The notes under the pieces are model-generated. The model saw nothing but the letters and a program-made list of their open reading frames with translations, was not told the DNA's origin and made no database searches. Positions 6,486 to 13,403 of a stretch of DNA of 30,278 bases are shown here, piece by piece. A program made the position numbers and the translations under genes. This DNA is from a virus. Numbering within the stretch: position 1 is the first letter of the stretch; the number at the start of each line of letters is the position of its first letter. The stretch covers positions 1 through 30,278 of the IMG/VR virus record IMGVR_UViG_3300032291_001802. The stretch is one strand, 5' to 3'.

Positions 6486-6835
6486 TACTATTAATTCTAT
6501 TACTTGGATGTGCTACAGATAATCAGATTAACAAGCCAATAGATACCAAAGAAGCAATCAAAGACTTACAATCAATTGAGATAACTACTATAAAGGATTC
6601 TGCTATTAGGGAGAGAGTGGTGAGGGTCTTACAGGATTGTGGGGAGTATGGCAAGGAAGCTTATAAGAGTGCTACTGCTTTACAGAGTCGAGTATCCGAA
6701 CTAGAAAAGCAATTGCTAGAACTAGAAGAAGAAATAAAGCCATATAGGTATTTTAAGAGATTCCTTTTAGTGTCTATAATTGCAGTTCTAATATTTTTTG
6801 GAATTAAATTTTATTTGAAGTTAAAACCAATTTAA
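6473..6835 (+). CDS. Unimolecular spanin (u-spanin): lipoprotein with C-terminal transmembrane segment
   Basis: The product is 120 residues. It starts MVRIVLLILLLGC, a very short lipoprotein signal with lipobox LLGC and Cys13 as the lipidation site. Residues about 67-90 are a charged coiled coil. Residues about 96-113 (RFLLVSIIAVLIFFGIKF) are a C-terminal membrane span. An outer-membrane lipid anchor plus an inner-membrane span in one chain is the arrangement of T1 gp11-type u-spanins, which fuse the two membranes in the last lysis step. The gene overlaps the peptidase gene by 13 bp and ends tail-to-tail with the leftward HTH gene, sharing 4 bp. It implies a diderm host. Confidence 0.8.
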   Translation: MVRIVLLILLLGCATDNQINKPIDTKEAIKDLQSIEITTIKDSAIRERVVRVLQDCGEYGKEAYKSATALQSRVSELEKQLLELEEEIKPYRYFKRFLLVSIIAVLIFFGIKFYLKLKPI

Positions 6836-7026
6836 TAATTTTTAGCATGTTTTATAAACTTAGCAGGTTGAACTTGCAATCTATCTTGCCATTCTAATTT
6901 TAGCAATTCCAGATCTTCAGAGTTAACAGTACCATCTGCTAGTGTTCTAAGTTTTCGTTCTTTCATAAGTCTCCTGATTGTCGTGTGGTGACATCCTAAG
7001 TATCTTGATGCATCTTGTATTTTCAT
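6832..7026 (-). CDS. Small helix-turn-helix DNA-binding protein (excisionase/MerR-like)
   Basis: The product is 64 residues from the ATG at 7026, chosen because GGAGAG lies just upstream of it on the minus strand. A longer frame to 7068 lacks such a site. Residues 1-40 (KIQDASRYLGCHHTTIRRLM, then a K-x-R-K-L wing) form a winged helix-turn-helix of the HTH_17/excisionase type: an alanine/serine turn, GCHHTTIRR as recognition helix, then D-G-x-V as wing. It is one of only two leftward genes, so it could be a repressor, Cro-like switch or activator. No integrase is present, so an excisionase role is unlikely. The target could be the divergent control region at 7591-7735. Confidence 0.7.
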   Translation of the reverse strand: MKIQDASRYLGCHHTTIRRLMKERKLRTLADGTVNSEDLELLKLEWQDRLQVQPAKFIKHAKNY

Positions 7027-7047
7027 ATTCTCTCCTATAAAATAAAA

Positions 7048-7076
7048 TGAGTCGTTTGGAAATACCAAACAACTCA
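7048..7076 (-). terminator. Hairpin with T-rich tail between the two leftward genes
   Basis: An inverted repeat pairs TGAGT and GTTTGG (7048-7059) with CCAAAC and ACTCA (7065-7076), giving 11 pairs with one mismatch and a 5-base loop. On the minus strand it is followed by TTTTATTTTA. It could end or attenuate transcripts of the membrane protein gene before the HTH gene. A protein-binding dyad is the alternative. Confidence 0.5.
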
Positions 7077-7089
7077 GGTGTAATCAATT

Positions 7090-7590
7090 CTAATCTAGTT
7101 TTATGTCGTGCCAACTATTTTTGTAAGTCTCATTTATATTTTTTATCTCTCTATCGTATTGCTGAACTGCCAATTCAGTCAGATAAACTATTATTGCAAT
7201 CGGTAACACACTCATAATGAGAGCTTGACTAAATGCGAGTAGTGTCCCCGGATCATCAATCGGTTGTTTGCAAGCACCGGCACAAACAAGAAACGAATTA
7301 GTATTGGCAGTCGTAGAGATTAGAAACGCCAGTATCACACTACCCCACATTAACGCATATGTCCGCATCAAGTGGAATACAATAATAGCTATGTCCAGTG
7401 CAAGGGATATTCCCAAAGCATAGATTGTAAGAGTAGTCTCGGATTGGATTAGATCCATCCTAGTTTGTAGTAAATAATACTTAATAGCTGAATAGTTAGA
7501 TATTATTCCTACCGTGCCAAAAAATATTGCAATGGAAAGTTTTAATCGTTTTGTCTCGAAAAATTGAAAGAATTTTGATTGGTTAGTCAT
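7090..7590 (-). CDS. Multi-span inner-membrane protein, function unknown
   Basis: The product is 166 residues, with four hydrophobic segments at about 17-40 (LSIAIFFGTVGIISNYSAIK), 54-72 (LTIYALGISLALDIAIIVF), 78-96 and 117-141. Two cysteines (CAGAC) lie in the loop between spans 3 and 4. The tail is hydrophilic. Its ATG has AGGAGAC just upstream on the minus strand, so translation should be efficient. It is the first gene of the short leftward unit, divergent from the early operon. This position and topology would suit a superinfection-exclusion or membrane-signalling protein expressed apart from the lytic programme, but I recognise no family. Confidence 0.65.
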   Translation of the reverse strand: MTNQSKFFQFFETKRLKLSIAIFFGTVGIISNYSAIKYYLLQTRMDLIQSETTLTIYALGISLALDIAIIVFHLMRTYALMWGSVILAFLISTTANTNSFLVCAGACKQPIDDPGTLLAFSQALIMSVLPIAIIVYLTELAVQQYDREIKNINETYKNSWHDIKLD

Positions 7591-7735
7591 GTTGTTATGT
7601 CTCCTAGAATGTTTATCGAATTTTATTGAAAAAGCTTGAATAAAATAAAAATCATTTTTTTTTATTTTTTTTTATTTTTTTTCTTTACTTTTTGAGATGG
7701 GTAAACGATAATAAATATATAGAGAGGAAATTAAG
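7591..7735. promoter_or_regulatory. Divergent control region with phased T-tracts
   Basis: This 145-bp region separates the leftward and rightward genes. It holds three long T runs at 7655-7663, 7665-7673 and 7675-7682, spaced 10 bp apart and each interrupted by one base. A-tracts in phase with the helix bend DNA and can act as UP elements. GATAA-type motifs lie on both sides (minus strand 7613-7618, plus strand 7707-7712). It is the obvious place for an early promoter pair and for an HTH operator. Confidence 0.6.
7684..7712 (+). promoter_or_regulatory. Early rightward promoter candidate
   Basis: TTTACT (7684-7689), a 17-bp spacer, then GATAAT (7707-7712) make a good sigma70-type promoter. 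The T-tracts sit immediately upstream, where an UP element would be. Transcription would start near 7719, about 17 bases before the ATG at 7736, whose ribosome site is AGAGGA. Matches are by eye. Confidence 0.5.
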
Positions 7736-8032: not shown

Positions 8033-8085
8033 CTAGCCTGATGATGGGGGGTTTGCTACCTCCCGAAACTCTTCGGAGTCGCTAG
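8033..8085 (+). ncRNA. Hammerhead self-cleaving ribozyme (type I)
   Basis: All core elements are present in order. Stem I is CTAGC (8033-8037) with GCTAG (8081-8085). The core CTGATGA is at 8038-8044. Stem II is GGGGGGT (8046-8052) with ACCTCCC (8058-8064), loop TTGCT, one G-U pair. The core GAAA is at 8065-8068. Stem III is ACTC/GAGT with a cUUCGg tetraloop (8068-8079). The cleavage triplet is GTC, so the predicted cut follows C8080. The one departure is an extra U (8045) between A9 and stem II. Stem I may extend beyond an internal loop through ATCT (8023-8026) with AGAT (8090-8093), which could supply the usual loop I-loop II contact. It lies between the first two early genes, so cleavage would split their mRNA. 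Confidence 0.87.
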
Positions 8086-8838: not shown

Positions 8839-9654
8839 ATGAACGACATAGTAATATCTACAAATAACCCACTTGAAAACATAAGGCAGTCAACCGACGT
8901 GGCTGGAGCTTGCAAGGAAATTGTAAGCAAAACAGCAATCAAGATACAGAATAAAAAATATGTCCCTGTCGAGGGATGGATGAGTATTGCAACTGCTCAC
9001 GGATGTGTATTAAGTGCATCCGATGTAAAACAGATAGAGGGTGGCATTTCAGCGAGAGGAATCGTAAGACGTGTGTCCGATGGTCTTATAATAGGAGAGG
9101 CAGAAGGATTCGTGGGAGACGATGAAAAGACATGGGCAAATCGTCCATTGTTTGCAAGGAGAGCAATGGCGCAAACTCGTGCAATGTCAAGGGCTGCAAG
9201 ATCTGTATTTGCACATGTGGTGGTCTTGATGGACGCAGGATTGGAAACTACTCCTATGGAGGAAATGGAGCATCTAGCACACGTTCAACCCGTAGCACAG
9301 CCAGTAACACAACCACAAAATAAGTCAATAAAATCAGGCATCGAAGAGACTTTCAGCAAGTTTAAGACTGCTATTAGTGAATGTCTTATCACTTTGAATC
9401 TGGATAGATTTATAAAAGCATATAAGACTTTTGATAAGTATGTTCAAACCTTGCCAGAAGATTTATTCGAGGAGTTTGATCACTTCATGACCAAAGCAAT
9501 TACTCAAATTTGCGAAGGAATCGAAACAGGAGACTACACAGTCAATGAACAGATGAGAGATGATTTAAGTAAATTATTTCCTACATGGAAAAATGAAATC
9601 AGTCGAGTATATAACAACCAACCAAAAAAGGATCAAGAGGAGAGAATATTTTGA
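8839..9654 (+). CDS. Candidate single-strand annealing / ssDNA-binding recombination protein
   Basis: The product is 271 residues. The first ~135 residues form a conserved domain: NNPLENIRQSTDVAG, then KYVPVEGWMSIATAHG, then EAEGFVGDDEKTWANRP and ARRAMAQTRAMSRAARS. I recall similar sequences in phages and plasmids. The R-A-x-A-Q-T-R-A-x-S-R-A helix is reminiscent of Rad52/Erf/DdrA-type annealing proteins, but this is suggestive only. Residues about 140-160 are a low-complexity Q/P/V linker (VQPVAQPVTQPQ). The C-terminal ~110 residues are a separate charged helical domain. TAGGAG precedes the ATG. Its place among early genes fits a DNA-metabolism role. The stop overlaps the TTG start of the next gene. 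Confidence 0.6.
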   Translation: MNDIVISTNNPLENIRQSTDVAGACKEIVSKTAIKIQNKKYVPVEGWMSIATAHGCVLSASDVKQIEGGISARGIVRRVSDGLIIGEAEGFVGDDEKTWANRPLFARRAMAQTRAMSRAARSVFAHVVVLMDAGLETTPMEEMEHLAHVQPVAQPVTQPQNKSIKSGIEETFSKFKTAISECLITLNLDRFIKAYKTFDKYVQTLPEDLFEEFDHFMTKAITQICEGIETGDYTVNEQMRDDLSKLFPTWKNEISRVYNNQPKKDQEERIF

Positions 9655-10019
9655 ATACAGAAACTAAAATAAACAGACAAAGATATTGGCATATCAAAGA
9701 AGAGAAGTATATTTACAGTGCATTGAGCTATGAAGGCAATCATAATTATATACGATCAGAATGGACTGGGTTAGTAGATATAGACTTACAACCAATCTAC
9801 GAAGATGATATTATCCATGTGATTGAAACAGAGAGAGAAGACTACTATGCTATTGCTAGACATGACTATAAGTCTTACAGAGTATTCGACACTTACCCAG
9901 TAAGACAACCATTTTCTTCCCTAGGATTGGCATGGATCACAGCATCTATAGTCAAGTCTGTAAAAGTCGTAGGAAATATCAGAGAAGAGAAATACAAAAA
10001 ATATAGGGATATGATATGA
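9651..10019 (+). CDS. YopX-like small protein (divergent)
   Basis: The product is 122 residues from a TTG start at 9651, strongly supported by GAGGAGAG at 9637-9644 and overlapping the upstream stop as TTGA. The centre reads WTGLVDIDLQPIYEDDIIHV and the end reads VKVVGNIREEKYKKY. These parallel the TG-x-x-D-x-x-G-x-x-IYEGD and GNIYEN signatures of YopX proteins, one of which is clearly encoded three genes downstream. It is therefore probably a diverged YopX paralogue. YopX proteins are widespread in phages, but their function is unknown to me. Confidence 0.65.
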   Translation: MNTETKINRQRYWHIKEEKYIYSALSYEGNHNYIRSEWTGLVDIDLQPIYEDDIIHVIETEREDYYAIARHDYKSYRVFDTYPVRQPFSSLGLAWITASIVKSVKVVGNIREEKYKKYRDMI

Positions 10020-10216: not shown

Positions 10217-10565
10217 ATTCGTAGATCTCAAACCTACTCACAGATATTACTGTGAAAATTGCCAGGATACCGGTAAGATAGAAACGCTAGTCTACACAGG
10301 CAAGGACATAGGCTATCTCACACATGGACAAGTGATTGTATCGTATGACAGGTTTGCTCGCATCTGTTGGAACTATCACAGGTCACTGTATCCAAGTCTA
10401 CCTGAGTATAATAGATTTTTAATGAGCAATAAGGAAGCAATTGAGATATATTGCAAAAGTGCGGAAAAATATAACCCATCTGCACACTACGACATACAAA
10501 GCATGGATCCTTGCAAATGTAGTCGAGGAAATTGGATAAAGGAGAAACGAAATGAGGGAAATTAA
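10197..10565 (+). CDS. Cysteine-containing protein, possible zinc binding
   Basis: The product is 122 residues. Cysteine pairs occur near the start (YYCENCQDTGKI, about residues 18-29) and near the end (DPCKCSRGNW, about 104-113). The two CxxC/CxC pairs could together bind one zinc ion, as in DnaJ-like knuckles. The ATG has AAAGGA at 10187-10192 upstream. The gene overlaps its neighbours on both sides, typical of this operon. The YopX gene follows directly. Its function is unknown, and the zinc suggestion is inference from the cysteines. Confidence 0.6.
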   Translation: MEEIVNKFVDLKPTHRYYCENCQDTGKIETLVYTGKDIGYLTHGQVIVSYDRFARICWNYHRSLYPSLPEYNRFLMSNKEAIEIYCKSAEKYNPSAHYDIQSMDPCKCSRGNWIKEKRNEGN

Positions 10566-10977
10566 ATTTAGAGCATGGGATAAAACATTAGAATATATGA
10601 TACAATGGGATAAAATAGAAATGTATCATTTTTATGATGATGATTTTATTCTTATGCAATATACTGGAATTAAAGATGCTTGTGGGAAAGAAATATATGA
10701 GGGGGATGTTGTTTGCATTTATTTTGATAATAATAAAAATAAATGCAAAGTAAGAGTAATAGAGTATAATAATGGAATGTTTTATTGCATGAATTATTTA
10801 AATACAAATTACTATTTATTATATAAAATTAGTAAAGACTCAATAATAAATAGTATTATAATTTTAGATAATATTTATGAAAATCCTACAATTTATAAAG
10901 CTAACTTAAAACACAAATTAAACTGGGATGTAAACTATACAGAACTCATCAAAGAATTGGAGAAAGACAATGTATGA
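10552..10977 (+). CDS. YopX protein family
   Basis: The product is 141 residues with the clear YopX signature: MREIKFRAWDKTLEYM at the N-terminus, QYTGIKDACGKEIYEGDVV at about 41-59, and IILDNIYENPTIY towards the C-terminus. This family is common in phages and prophages of many bacteria; its molecular role is not known to me. A strong ribosome site (GGAG, 10541-10544) supports the start. The middle of the gene is very A+T-rich compared with its neighbours, which hints at recent acquisition. It overlaps a short gene at its 3' end. Confidence 0.85.
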   Translation: MREIKFRAWDKTLEYMIQWDKIEMYHFYDDDFILMQYTGIKDACGKEIYEGDVVCIYFDNNKNKCKVRVIEYNNGMFYCMNYLNTNYYLLYKISKDSIINSIIILDNIYENPTIYKANLKHKLNWDVNYTELIKELEKDNV

Positions 10978-11125: not shown

Positions 11126-11165
11126 AACTTTACAAAATAATAAGACATAACAAACTAGCACTAAG

Positions 11166-11205
11166 CCCAGAGCCGTCACTCTGGGTAGATTCTTGACGGG
11201 GAATC
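11166..11205 (+). ncRNA. Two hairpins with complementary (kissing) loops
   Basis: Hairpin 1 pairs CCCAGAG (11166-11172) with CTCTGGG (11179-11185) around loop CCGTCA. Hairpin 2 pairs GATTC (11188-11192) with GAATC (11201-11205) around loop TTGACGGG. Loop 1 is perfectly complementary to TGACGG (11194-11199) in loop 2, giving six possible kissing pairs. The hairpins are two bases apart. I do not recognise a named riboswitch or ribozyme class. It may be a 3'-end stabiliser or regulatory element of the early transcript. Confidence 0.65.
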
Positions 11206-11238
11206 ATAGCAACAGACATCCTTCCTCTGATCTACTCA

Positions 11239-11278
11239 GTGACATCTGGACTAATTAAAGGGTATAACAAAAGTTATA
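11239..11278 (+). promoter_or_regulatory. Promoter candidate with overlapping dyad upstream of the Rha-like gene
   Basis: GTGACA (11239-11244), an 18-bp spacer and TATAAC (11263-11268) give a sigma70-type promoter with one mismatch in each hexamer. The -10 box is half of a dyad, TATAAC-AAAA-GTTATA (11263-11278), which could be an operator or an RNA hairpin. The ribosome site AGGAG of the next gene follows at 11286. Between 11126 and 11238 I see no gene, only the kissing hairpins. Confidence 0.5.
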
Positions 11279-11298
11279 GCCTTATAGGAGTCCATACA

Positions 11299-12024
11299 AT
11301 GGAACTAAAAACAATCAATAATCAACCGACAATGACCAGTATACAATTGGTCGATTATATCAATGAAGACAGAAGACTTGTAGCAGAACAAGACAATGGA
11401 AAATATACGGAGCTTTTGCACAAAAATTTTATGGCAAAAGTACCTGAAGTTTTAGGGCATAAGCACGCTGCTAAATTTTTAGCAACGCAAAAATATGGCA
11501 ATAACAATGAAAGAAATATTTACATATTCCCAGAACGTGAAGCAATCCTTATGGCTATGTCTTATTCTTACTCTTTACAATCTAAAGTTTACGATCAATT
11601 TCAATCTATGAAAAGCATAGTAGAAAGCATAAATCCAAATGAAATTTTGTTAATAATTGCAAATATGCAAAAACAATTTATGGAATTAAACTCTAATGTC
11701 ACTGCCTTAATCAACAATCTAGCAATTAAGCATGAACCAAAAGTAGAAACACCTAAGTACTTCCAACCTTCATTCTCAAACAATTCCAATGAAGACATTC
11801 ATCTCTATCATAGAATTACTATCTATGGAAAGAAGTTCAGACCAGATTTAGATCAATCTCAGATTAGAGACAGAGCGAAAGAAATAGGGATGATGGCAAG
11901 CAGATTATCTAAAGAAAGAAATATTCAGATTATCAAGGAAGACAATTTGGATGGAAGATTCCAGAATAAGATTTCTTACTATCATCAAAATGTATTGAAA
12001 GAAGTATTTGATTTAATATTTTAG
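11299..12024 (+). CDS. rha: Rha-like phage regulatory protein
   Basis: The product is 241 residues from ATG 11299, chosen because AGGAG (11286-11290) lies 8 bases upstream. An in-frame ATG at 11239 falls in the promoter candidate and lacks a ribosome site. Residues 10-100 match the Rha/pRha pattern: TMTSIQLVDYINEDRRLVAE, then H-K-N-F, and YIFPEREAILMAMSYSYSLQ followed by VYDQFQSM. This corresponds to the Y-x-F-t-x-x-G-x-x-x-L-x-M module seen in phage Rha and related antirepressor-like proteins. A coiled linker follows, and the C-terminal domain (about 160-241) is different, probably a separate DNA-binding or partner domain. Regulation of the replication genes downstream is an inference from position. 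Confidence 0.7.
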   Translation: MELKTINNQPTMTSIQLVDYINEDRRLVAEQDNGKYTELLHKNFMAKVPEVLGHKHAAKFLATQKYGNNNERNIYIFPEREAILMAMSYSYSLQSKVYDQFQSMKSIVESINPNEILLIIANMQKQFMELNSNVTALINNLAIKHEPKVETPKYFQPSFSNNSNEDIHLYHRITIYGKKFRPDLDQSQIRDRAKEIGMMASRLSKERNIQIIKEDNLDGRFQNKISYYHQNVLKEVFDLIF

Positions 12025-12080: not shown

Positions 12081-13403
12081 ATGAATAACACACCAACCGA
12101 AAAAAGCAATCAGAAAAACTCAGAGTTTATACCAAACTTTACCCAGTATCCGAACGAGATCCTCGACAACTGGATGCCACATTTATCAGGAAACCAAACC
12201 AAGATTATCAATGTGTTTGTCCGTCAGATTTATGGCTATCATAAAGACTACGATAGGATATCTATTAGACAGATCTCTCAGAAGACGGGAATATCTATAT
12301 CTAAAGTCTTTAAAGATGTTAAAAGTTTAATTTCAATCGGATGCATTAAGATCCTCAAAAAGGGAGATAAGAATAATTCCCACCTTTATCAAATCTTAAA
12401 TATTACTGAAGAGTTACCCCAGAGGGAACACTCTAGAAGAAACAAGGGTGTTACCCCAGAGGTAACAGGGTGTTACCCTATAGGTAACTCATGTGTTACC
12501 CCAGAGGTAACTGAAGAGTTACCCCAGAGGGAACAACAAAAGAAAGAAATAAAAGAAATAAAATGTGAAATAAAGGAAACGATTCCAAATTACAGAGAAC
12601 AGAGAACAGATTTAGTTCACACATCCAAGATCGAGTCCTATTCAATGGAAAGACTTCTGGAAAAATCTAATAACTTCCTACAACAAGTCGGATTTGGATT
12701 TTCCAAGAATCCCAGATACATCCTAGATCAGATCTACAAGCTACTCCCAGACGACTACCAAGTGAAAGAGGATGCCAAGGATACCGAGATCCTTAAGCAA
12801 GCCATAGAGAAGTTTGAGAGTGGTTCTGGAGGGGATAGAGACGCAATCTCGAAGAAATTATTTCAAGGTGTGGAAGCCATGGCTAAATTGTACTTAATCA
12901 AGAAGTATGGAGAAGAATTCCGAGATGTCTTGTATCCTAAGATCCTTAATGATAACCTGATCCTTTATCTCAATTGCAATCCTACGTTAAAGTACTGTTT
13001 GCAGGGATTTAGCAATGACATTGACGGAGTCTACTCGGAGATCAATCGAATTGTCAGGAAGAGACAAGAACAGGAAGAGAGAGACAGAATCAGAGAGGAG
13101 CAAAGATACCTGGAAAGGGAAAGGATCAAAGCCGAGGCACTCTCTAGACCACATTTTACAGATGATGACATCCATGCTCTTGGATTGAGGACAGTTCCGG
13201 AACTCTTACAGTCGATGCAGGACAAAGGAAGTAATATTGATTTACTCGACAAAAAATATCAGGCTATTGATCAAACGATAACCGATAGTGAGAGAGAGAG
13301 ACTTGGAGAGCTATTGAGGATTAAGATTTCAAAAGGGAACTTGGATCTTAGCGAAGAGAATGAGTATTTGAGTTTGAATAGGAAGATGAAAGGAAATGGA
13401 TAA
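12081..13403 (+). CDS. Lambda O-like replication initiator
   Basis: The product is 440 residues. Residues about 14-112 resemble the phage replication protein O N-terminal domain: FIPNFTQYPNEILDNWMPHL, then a helix ending VFVRQIYGYHKDYDRIS, and IRQISQKTGISISKVFKDV as a winged helix-turn-helix. Residues about 111-152 are encoded by five DNA iterons and are repetitive in three frames (LPQRE, VTPEVT, YPIGN). A lysine/glutamate-rich linker follows, then a helical C-terminal region that may recruit a host helicase. There is no Walker motif, so it is an origin binder and not a helicase. ThyX overlaps its end by 8 bp. The origin role is supported by the embedded iterons and A-rich tract, as in lambda. 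Confidence 0.8.
   Translation: MNNTPTEKSNQKNSEFIPNFTQYPNEILDNWMPHLSGNQTKIINVFVRQIYGYHKDYDRISIRQISQKTGISISKVFKDVKSLISIGCIKILKKGDKNNSHLYQILNITEELPQREHSRRNKGVTPEVTGCYPIGNSCVTPEVTEELPQREQQKKEIKEIKCEIKETIPNYREQRTDLVHTSKIESYSMERLLEKSNNFLQQVGFGFSKNPRYILDQIYKLLPDDYQVKEDAKDTEILKQAIEKFESGSGGDRDAISKKLFQGVEAMAKLYLIKKYGEEFRDVLYPKILNDNLILYLNCNPTLKYCLQGFSNDIDGVYSEINRIVRKRQEQEERDRIREEQRYLERERIKAEALSRPHFTDDDIHALGLRTVPELLQSMQDKGSNIDLLDKKYQAIDQTITDSERERLGELLRIKISKGNLDLSEENEYLSLNRKMKGNG
12413..12578 (+). other. Replication origin candidate: five iterons plus A-rich tract inside the initiator gene
   Basis: Five 17-bp repeats start at 12413, 12450, 12472, 12495 and 12518. Two read GTTACCCCAGAGGTAAC, two GTTACCCCAGAGGGAAC, and one GTTACCCTATAGGTAAC. 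Each is a near-dyad with GTTACC/GGTAAC or GGGAAC arms. The last four are spaced 22-23 bp apart, about two helical turns. An A-rich, almost C-free tract (12535-12578) follows, a likely unwinding element. The arrangement matches lambda ori within gene O. Confidence 0.85.

Follow-up and report, generated by a model that had tools for sequence, protein, structure and literature searches.

A conserved two-hairpin RNA with covarying loops ahead of phage antirepressor genes, a candidate bistable switch on their translation

The sequence analyzed here (the window, 30,278 nt) is an IMG/VR virus record in which a non-coding region separates an early operon from an antirepressor-replication operon; the leader features described below and the two genes of the latter operon lie on the plus strand. 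The first gene of the latter operon (11299..12024) encodes a 241 aa Rha/antirepressor-like protein (PHROG 63 'anti-repressor Ant', E 2.4e-12), and the second (12081..13403) a replication O-like protein whose C-terminal domain is conserved (Pfam Phage_rep_O, E 2.5e-11; PHROG 678, E 1.2e-20). Two YopX-family genes (9651-10019 and 10552-10977) belong to the early operon just before the non-coding region. Two divergent genes on the minus strand (6832-7590), one HTH_17/excisionase-like and the other encoding a membrane protein, face the early operon across a T-rich stretch (7652-7690) that may be a regulatory region.

The non-coding region contains two adjacent hairpins. P1 (11166..11185, CCCAGAG-CCGTCA-CTCTGGG) pairs arms 11166-11172 and 11179-11185 around the loop CCGTCA (11173-11178), and P2 (11188..11205), separated from P1 by the linker TA, pairs arms 11188-11193 and 11200-11205 around the loop TGACGG (11194-11199). 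An earlier note on this DNA had reported both hairpins and an exact complementarity of their six-base loops, and the sequence confirms it: the loops are exact reverse complements, able to form six Watson-Crick pairs (S2, 11173..11199). P2 can be drawn with a 5-bp stem (11188 GATTC-TTGACGGG-GAATC 11205), and is best read with a 6-bp stem, GATTCT/GGAATC, closing the hexaloop TGACGG; its innermost (sixth) pair, U-G in the window, is U-A in relatives, where the 6-bp stem and hexaloop recur as GATTCT-TGAGGG-AGAATC. Thermodynamics alone are only suggestive, with mildly unusual folding energies for both a 63-nt piece (z = -2.86; 2 of 200 shuffles fold equally well) and 172 nt (z = -3.39).

Relatives of the window were sought with the Rha-like protein, the terminase and DNA patterns, yielding nine members in all (the window, L002, L003/L008, L009, L014, L015, L018/L020, L023 and L034). 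The nearest named terminase, at 28% identity, comes from a phage of Silvanigrella. Four loop pairs occur among these nine members (CCGTCA/TGACGG, CCCATA/TATGGG, CGCCCA/TGGGCG and CCCTCA/TGAGGG), and alignment of the four distinct sequences reveals that all 19 pairs (7 in P1, 6 loop-loop, 6 in P2) are standard in every row. Nine of these pairs show changes on both sides, a result matched by none of 500 shuffles, and the covariation score (0.596, versus 0.260 for shuffles; 0/500) loses its signal when the partners are slid. A tenth member, L257, which the first hairpin pattern had missed, came from a search that used as query the C-terminal domain of Rep, the protein encoded downstream. This more distant phage (51% identity) carries, ahead of a Bro-N/KilAC-like gene, the core CCCGATG-TCCCTAT-CATCGGG-TG-GATCTT-TATAGGG-AAGATT, which contributes a fifth matched loop pair (CCCTAT/ATAGGG) in loops that are each one base longer (7 nt). 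Found by protein synteny alone, L257 is an out-of-sample confirmation of the element.

The element is hence documented in ten related phage contigs, with five distinct P1-P2 core sequences and one copy per genome. Across the five types, all 30 loop-loop cells (30/30) are Watson-Crick, and five of the six loop-loop positions carry double changes; the seven pairs of P1 and six pairs of P2 are standard in all members, with double changes at 3/7 and 2/6, respectively. Covariation, named beforehand as the check for both stems and for the loop-loop pair, is found in all three; on this evidence the loop-loop contact is real, and conservation is the decisive argument for the reality of the P1-P2 element. 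An element acting as DNA or as a protein-binding site and palindromic only by coincidence, such as a repressor operator or a replication signal, might also present itself as single-copy inverted repeats adjoining a replication gene. A dyad operator, however, would retain its sequence rather than covary in its loops, and the G-U pairs in P2 and in the alternative helix PX (see below), as well as the positional tie to promoter and SD, favor an RNA; we consider a DNA element very unlikely.

Searches of Rfam at gathering and relaxed thresholds (E<=10 for the window, E<=5 for three relatives) returned nothing relevant, and BLASTN of the region against 50,697 phage records gave short unrelated matches only. 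A pattern scan of 84,980 bacterial and archaeal genomes yielded 53 stretches, none with the two-hairpin and matching-loop layout, and the promoter-box pattern 81 stretches in viral contigs, with no added member. No member was added by a looser hairpin pattern except L257, already known by synteny, and a search with the gene immediately upstream of the leader returned known contigs only. A covariance model run over 195 fetched sources recovered family members only, its other matches (L032 and the reverse strands of members) having E values of 0.011 or worse. L169 and L032, inspected as candidate members, and L259 and L260, from the looser hairpin pattern, were judged to be chance matches. The initial label of unclassified RNA element suits a conserved structured RNA without an Rfam match at E<=10, and the same search bears out the remark that the element does not match purine riboswitch, guanidine-II, pistol or twister.

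Upstream of P1 lies a promoter-like box (11129..11156) consisting of TTTACA (11129-11134), a 16-nt spacer and a weak -10 sequence, CAAACT (11151-11156); in the window this box is under the cut-off of the promoter scan. In all ten members the TTTACA hexamer precedes the AAG in front of P1 by 37 nt (counted from first base to last), with variable bases in between, and in L257 the box (TTTACA-16-CATAAT) agrees with the sigma-70 consensus at 10 of 12 positions. Transcription would then start near 11163, next to P1, and therefore the element would form the 5' end of a transcript, not its 3' end. Conservation starts with the CTTTACAAAA box, which is promoter-like, and extends into the next operon's SD, and the element is therefore, by position and conservation, the 5' leader of the antirepressor-replication operon. 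The same span argues against the role in 3'-end stabilization or polymerase pausing after the early operon that had been suggested. The element is also larger than first described (about 11163-11298), its remainder consisting of complementary sequence further downstream, from which a second fold can be built. What survives of the initial interpretation is a conserved structured RNA; its 3'-end or pausing function does not, nor does its extent, as the two hairpins account for roughly half of the element.

Constrained folding indicates that all ten members can take this second fold (state B), which competes with the P1 and P2 hairpins (state A). In the alternative helix PX (11183..11237), GGGTAGAT (11183-11190) pairs with ATCTACTC (11230-11237); across members, GGGTRGAT, comprising the end of P1, the linker and the start of P2, pairs with ATCYAYYC. 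PX is standard in 40 of 40 cells over the five types, with one double change (A-U/G-C) and a lineage-specific G-U, and has lost one end pair in L015 and L023. A second alternative pairing (11198..11227) joins GGGGAA of the P2 loop and 3' arm (11198-11203) to TTCCTC (11222-11227) in the conserved CCTWCC segment. A reading of CCTWCC as an anti-SD was dropped, pairing with the P2 loop in state B being more consistent. Finally, helix P1c (11167..11249) joins CCAGA of the P1 5' arm (11167-11171) to TCTGG (11245-11249), a second copy of the P1 3' arm situated just before the SD hairpin (for the arm CCCGATG, a second copy of its partner CATCGGG). Most members form 6-7 P1c pairs; the window forms 5, in a shifted register, and the helix is weak (4 pairs) in L009. 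Lineage-specific state-B pairs include TCACT/AGTGA in the window and TACAT/ATGTA in L002.

The energy of the duplex that the 5' part forms with the downstream part is equaled in only 0-11 of 1000 dinucleotide shuffles per member (6/1000 in L257), ten results that do not amount to ten independent tests, the members being related. Constrained energies for states A/B are near each other in most members (window -44.8/-43.8, L257 -31.7/-32.7, L003 -32.4/-33.3, L014 -31.7/-31.0 and L034 -27.6/-28.0 kcal/mol), and the gap is largest in L002 (7.3 kcal/mol) and reaches 5.7 in L023. With 45 nt of coding sequence added, L023 and L034 lean strongly to A, and L002 to B. The SD itself (AGGAG, 11286-11290) is covered by a further hairpin (11248..11293), in which GGACT (11248-11252) pairs with AGTCC (11289-11293) and encloses an inner hairpin (11258-11283) that is present in L002 too, with a different stem sequence. 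This SD hairpin, GGACTC/GAGTCC or a weaker equivalent, is found in all ten members, and its 5' arm (GGACTC) overlaps P1c. The unpaired fraction of the SD is higher in B than in A in 9 of 9 members tested (e.g. rising from 0.24 to 0.54 in L003), with a small gain (A/B) in four of the nine (window 0.46/0.51, L002 0.24/0.28, L009 0.50/0.51, L034 0.01/0.08). The direction of switching that this weak computed difference would predict is A = off and B = on.

The loop pair had been described as a kissing loop, a term of which the complementarity stands, as it covaries, and the ordinary complex in cis does not. If both stems stay intact while the six loop pairs stack coaxially in idealized A-form geometry, the ends to be joined lie about 50 Å apart, and the 2-nt linker reaches about 21 Å, so that an intramolecular six-pair kissing complex of this kind appears sterically implausible. 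In addition, the calculated loop-loop duplex (-6.5 to -9.9 kcal/mol including initiation) is stronger than the P2 hairpin (-1.5 to -3.7 kcal/mol). Taken together, these estimates would require either that P2 opens, leaving P1 and the loop pair to make an H-type pseudoknot, or that two RNAs pair; the loop pair is therefore probably an intermolecular contact or part of a pseudoknot that alternates with P2. The P2 stem is preserved by covariation despite the stronger loop duplex, which suggests that the P2 hairpin and the loop pair are both used, at different times or in different molecules.

The first gene after the leader is Rha-like in the window, L002 and L003, Bro-N/KilAC in L015, L018 and L257 (the last two judged from sequence) and KilAC/ANT in L014 and L023; L009 has a small unknown gene first and Bro-N second, and the first gene of L034 belongs to no recognized family. 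An antirepressor-type gene (Rha, Bro-N, KilAC) hence comes first in eight of the ten members and second in L009, and the rep O-like gene follows directly or, in L257, after two further genes. Judged from this gene order, one leader serves interchangeable antirepressor-type genes, and its presence ahead of at least three antirepressor gene types suggests a portable control module.

Several further exchanges were observed around this locus. The slot at 11299-12024 is swapped between phages (Rha, Bro-N, KilAC/ANT or unknown) in the manner of a cassette site, as seen with L009, L014, L015, L018, L023, L034 and L257. In the Rep protein (window 12081-13403, L014 3443-4864, L034 1999-3465, L015 2370-3863) the C-terminal domain is conserved and the N-terminal parts are exchanged, with three unrelated-looking N termini. 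Genes identified by eye as DNA methyltransferase-like adjoin the leader-antirepressor unit in some relatives only (L034 652-1461, L023 8475-9281, L257 4293-5063).

Among known RNAs, the leader is best read, by analogy, as working like Gifsy-1 IsrK, P1 C4 and P4 CI, set apart from IsrK and CI by their descriptions and lacking a catalogued family match. According to PMC4825925, IsrK is an RNA located before an antirepressor gene that has two alternative folds and a short form acting in trans; it has a terminator and controls a short ORF coupled to anrP (the IsrK-orf45-anrP leader). IsrK is the closest working model for the leader: each is a 5' RNA directly upstream of an antirepressor operon whose translation changes, or would change, and the 5' part of each either makes its own hairpin or pairs with a downstream stretch. 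Two mutually exclusive folds, local and long-range, are what constrained folding of the ten members and the shuffles found here. The leader differs from IsrK in adjoining the SD of the antirepressor gene itself instead of a short ORF, in a long-range fold that is predicted to be more open where that of IsrK is inactive, and in its covarying loop-loop pair, none being described for IsrK in the passages of PMC4825925 consulted; no Rfam family matches the window at E<=10, and IsrK is likened to it by description. P4 CI, as portrayed in PMC4825925, is an operon-leader RNA complementary to other parts of the same leader that controls replication genes, but acts by premature transcription termination, and no intrinsic terminator was found in the leader.

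The C4 RNA of P1/P7 (Rfam RF01695; PMC5320573, PMC2864571) likewise folds into a defined structure within an antirepressor operon leader and is complementary to sequence at the ribosome-binding site further down, a feature matched here by the PX, CCTWCC and P1c pairings; both RNAs combine variable loops with constant stems. C4 comprises three stem-loops, whereas the leader has no conserved hairpins other than P1 and P2 ahead of its complementary sequence; C4 is cut by RNase P, whereas no processing signal was seen here, and its covariance model (RF01695) has no match in the window (E<=10) or in three relatives (E<=5). What C4 and CI share with the leader is the logic of an operon-leader RNA complementary to sequence elsewhere on the transcript that carries it. 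To our knowledge, none of IsrK, C4 and CI has a covarying loop pair.

These parallels raise the possibility, which we hold to be doubtful, of an immunity RNA: P1-P2 would be cut or terminated off as a small antisense RNA acting in trans before the SD of same-type phages, incoming or resident, with the variable loops setting specificity. The complementary target does lie directly upstream of the antirepressor SD, as for C4 (PMC5320573, PMC12197685) and IsrK, the loops change fastest yet always match, as a specificity code would, and two stable hairpins with exposed hexaloops suit an intermolecular kissing that is sterically hard in cis. Yet neither a terminator nor a processing site was seen after P2, cross-pairing energies separate the types poorly (the 5' part of L014 prefers the L003 target over its own), and no integrase or clear lysogeny cassette was recognized among the window genes scanned.

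The suggestion of a new riboswitch or ribozyme holds as far as an unclassified RNA is concerned; we find no support for a metabolite riboswitch or for a ribozyme. A P1-P2 pseudoknot serving as aptamer, with the SD hairpin as expression platform, would be in keeping with the conserved fold, its pseudoknot potential and the alternating structures, and two hairpins with kissing loops also characterize the guanidine-II riboswitch. In the latter, however, ACGR loops are conserved, the loops contact each other through two pairs and the linker measures 7-40 nt (PMC7357161), versus variable hexaloops, six pairs and a 2-nt linker in the leader, and ACGR loops are absent from both hairpins, the loops being CCGTCA/TGACGG and the four other pairs. 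Few unpaired bases are invariant in P1-P2, where pairing in A or B explains most conserved positions, no Rfam riboswitch matches the window (E<=10) or three relatives (E<=5), and the controlled genes are regulators without a common metabolite; a ligand-binding riboswitch is improbable. Still harder to sustain is a self-cleaving ribozyme, which we regard as having almost no likelihood: the P1 loop does pair with a downstream strand, recalling the pistol pseudoknot (PMC4604425), and a hammerhead-like motif lies 3 kb upstream, but the leader has neither P3 nor the ten-nucleotide conserved core of pistol, shows no conserved unpaired core and freely changing loops, and at E<=10 the window matches none of the pistol, twister, hatchet and hammerhead families.

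Our preferred reading, to which we assign a probability of roughly 0.6, is that the leader is a bistable RNA switch on translation of the first, antirepressor gene. In state A, the P1 and P2 hairpins would form while a separate hairpin sequesters the SD (off). In state B, the 5' arm of P1 would join the repeat of its partner immediately ahead of the SD, and the intervening sequence would pair with the P1-P2 region; the GG of the 5' arm of the SD hairpin would thereby be taken and the SD freed (on, or less off). The covarying P1 and P2 loops would most likely decide the state, either through an alternating pseudoknot within one RNA or through kissing between two RNAs of the same phage type, in which case a short 5' RNA could act in trans like IsrK, C4 and CI. 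The covariation in ten members, the matched fifth loop pair of L257, a state-B complementarity exceeding that of shuffles, the near-equal energies of A and B in most members, an SD that is freer in B, the mostly antirepressor-type gene context and the precedent of IsrK all speak for a switch. Against it stand the limitation to five distinct P1-P2 sequences, the weak P1c of L009 and its shifted register in the window, the small SD difference in 4/9 members, one-sided folding in some members and the first gene of L034.

Antirepressors, which turn off repressors of the host or of prophages, are key switches of phage lifestyle and are under RNA control in several unrelated phages (P1, P22, Gifsy-1); the leader would be a further, independent RNA device for them, in uncultivated phages and absent from Rfam. 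A more speculative extension, which we think unlikely, is that the loop pair is an intermolecular, phage-type-specific code, by which the leader RNAs of one phage, or a short 5' version of them, would dimerize through reciprocal P1-P2 kissing, so that the switch would respond to how many genomes of its own type are co-infecting or resident. If true, the loop code would act as an RNA-only sensor of dose or kin within a circuit of lysis-lysogeny style. With five matched loop types available in nature, loop swaps offer a direct test of the loop-loop contact.

The sequence AAACTAGC, which precedes the element and had been noted, with the caution that it may be chance, to precede the upstream hammerhead as well, is present in just 3 of the 10 members; six have AYATAG(C/T), and L257 has TTGACTC. 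As AAACTAGC is not conserved, its match with the hammerhead-like element is attributable to chance, and it was rejected as a link between the two. The hammerhead-like motif itself (window 8033-8085) reads CTAGC-CTGATGA-T-stem II-GAAAC-TCTTCGGAG-TC-GCTAG, with an extra T after CTGATGA, and is without an Rfam match at E<=10 in the window. A matching site occurs in L018 (about 170-225) and L020, and stem II shows a compensatory change between the window and this second phage.
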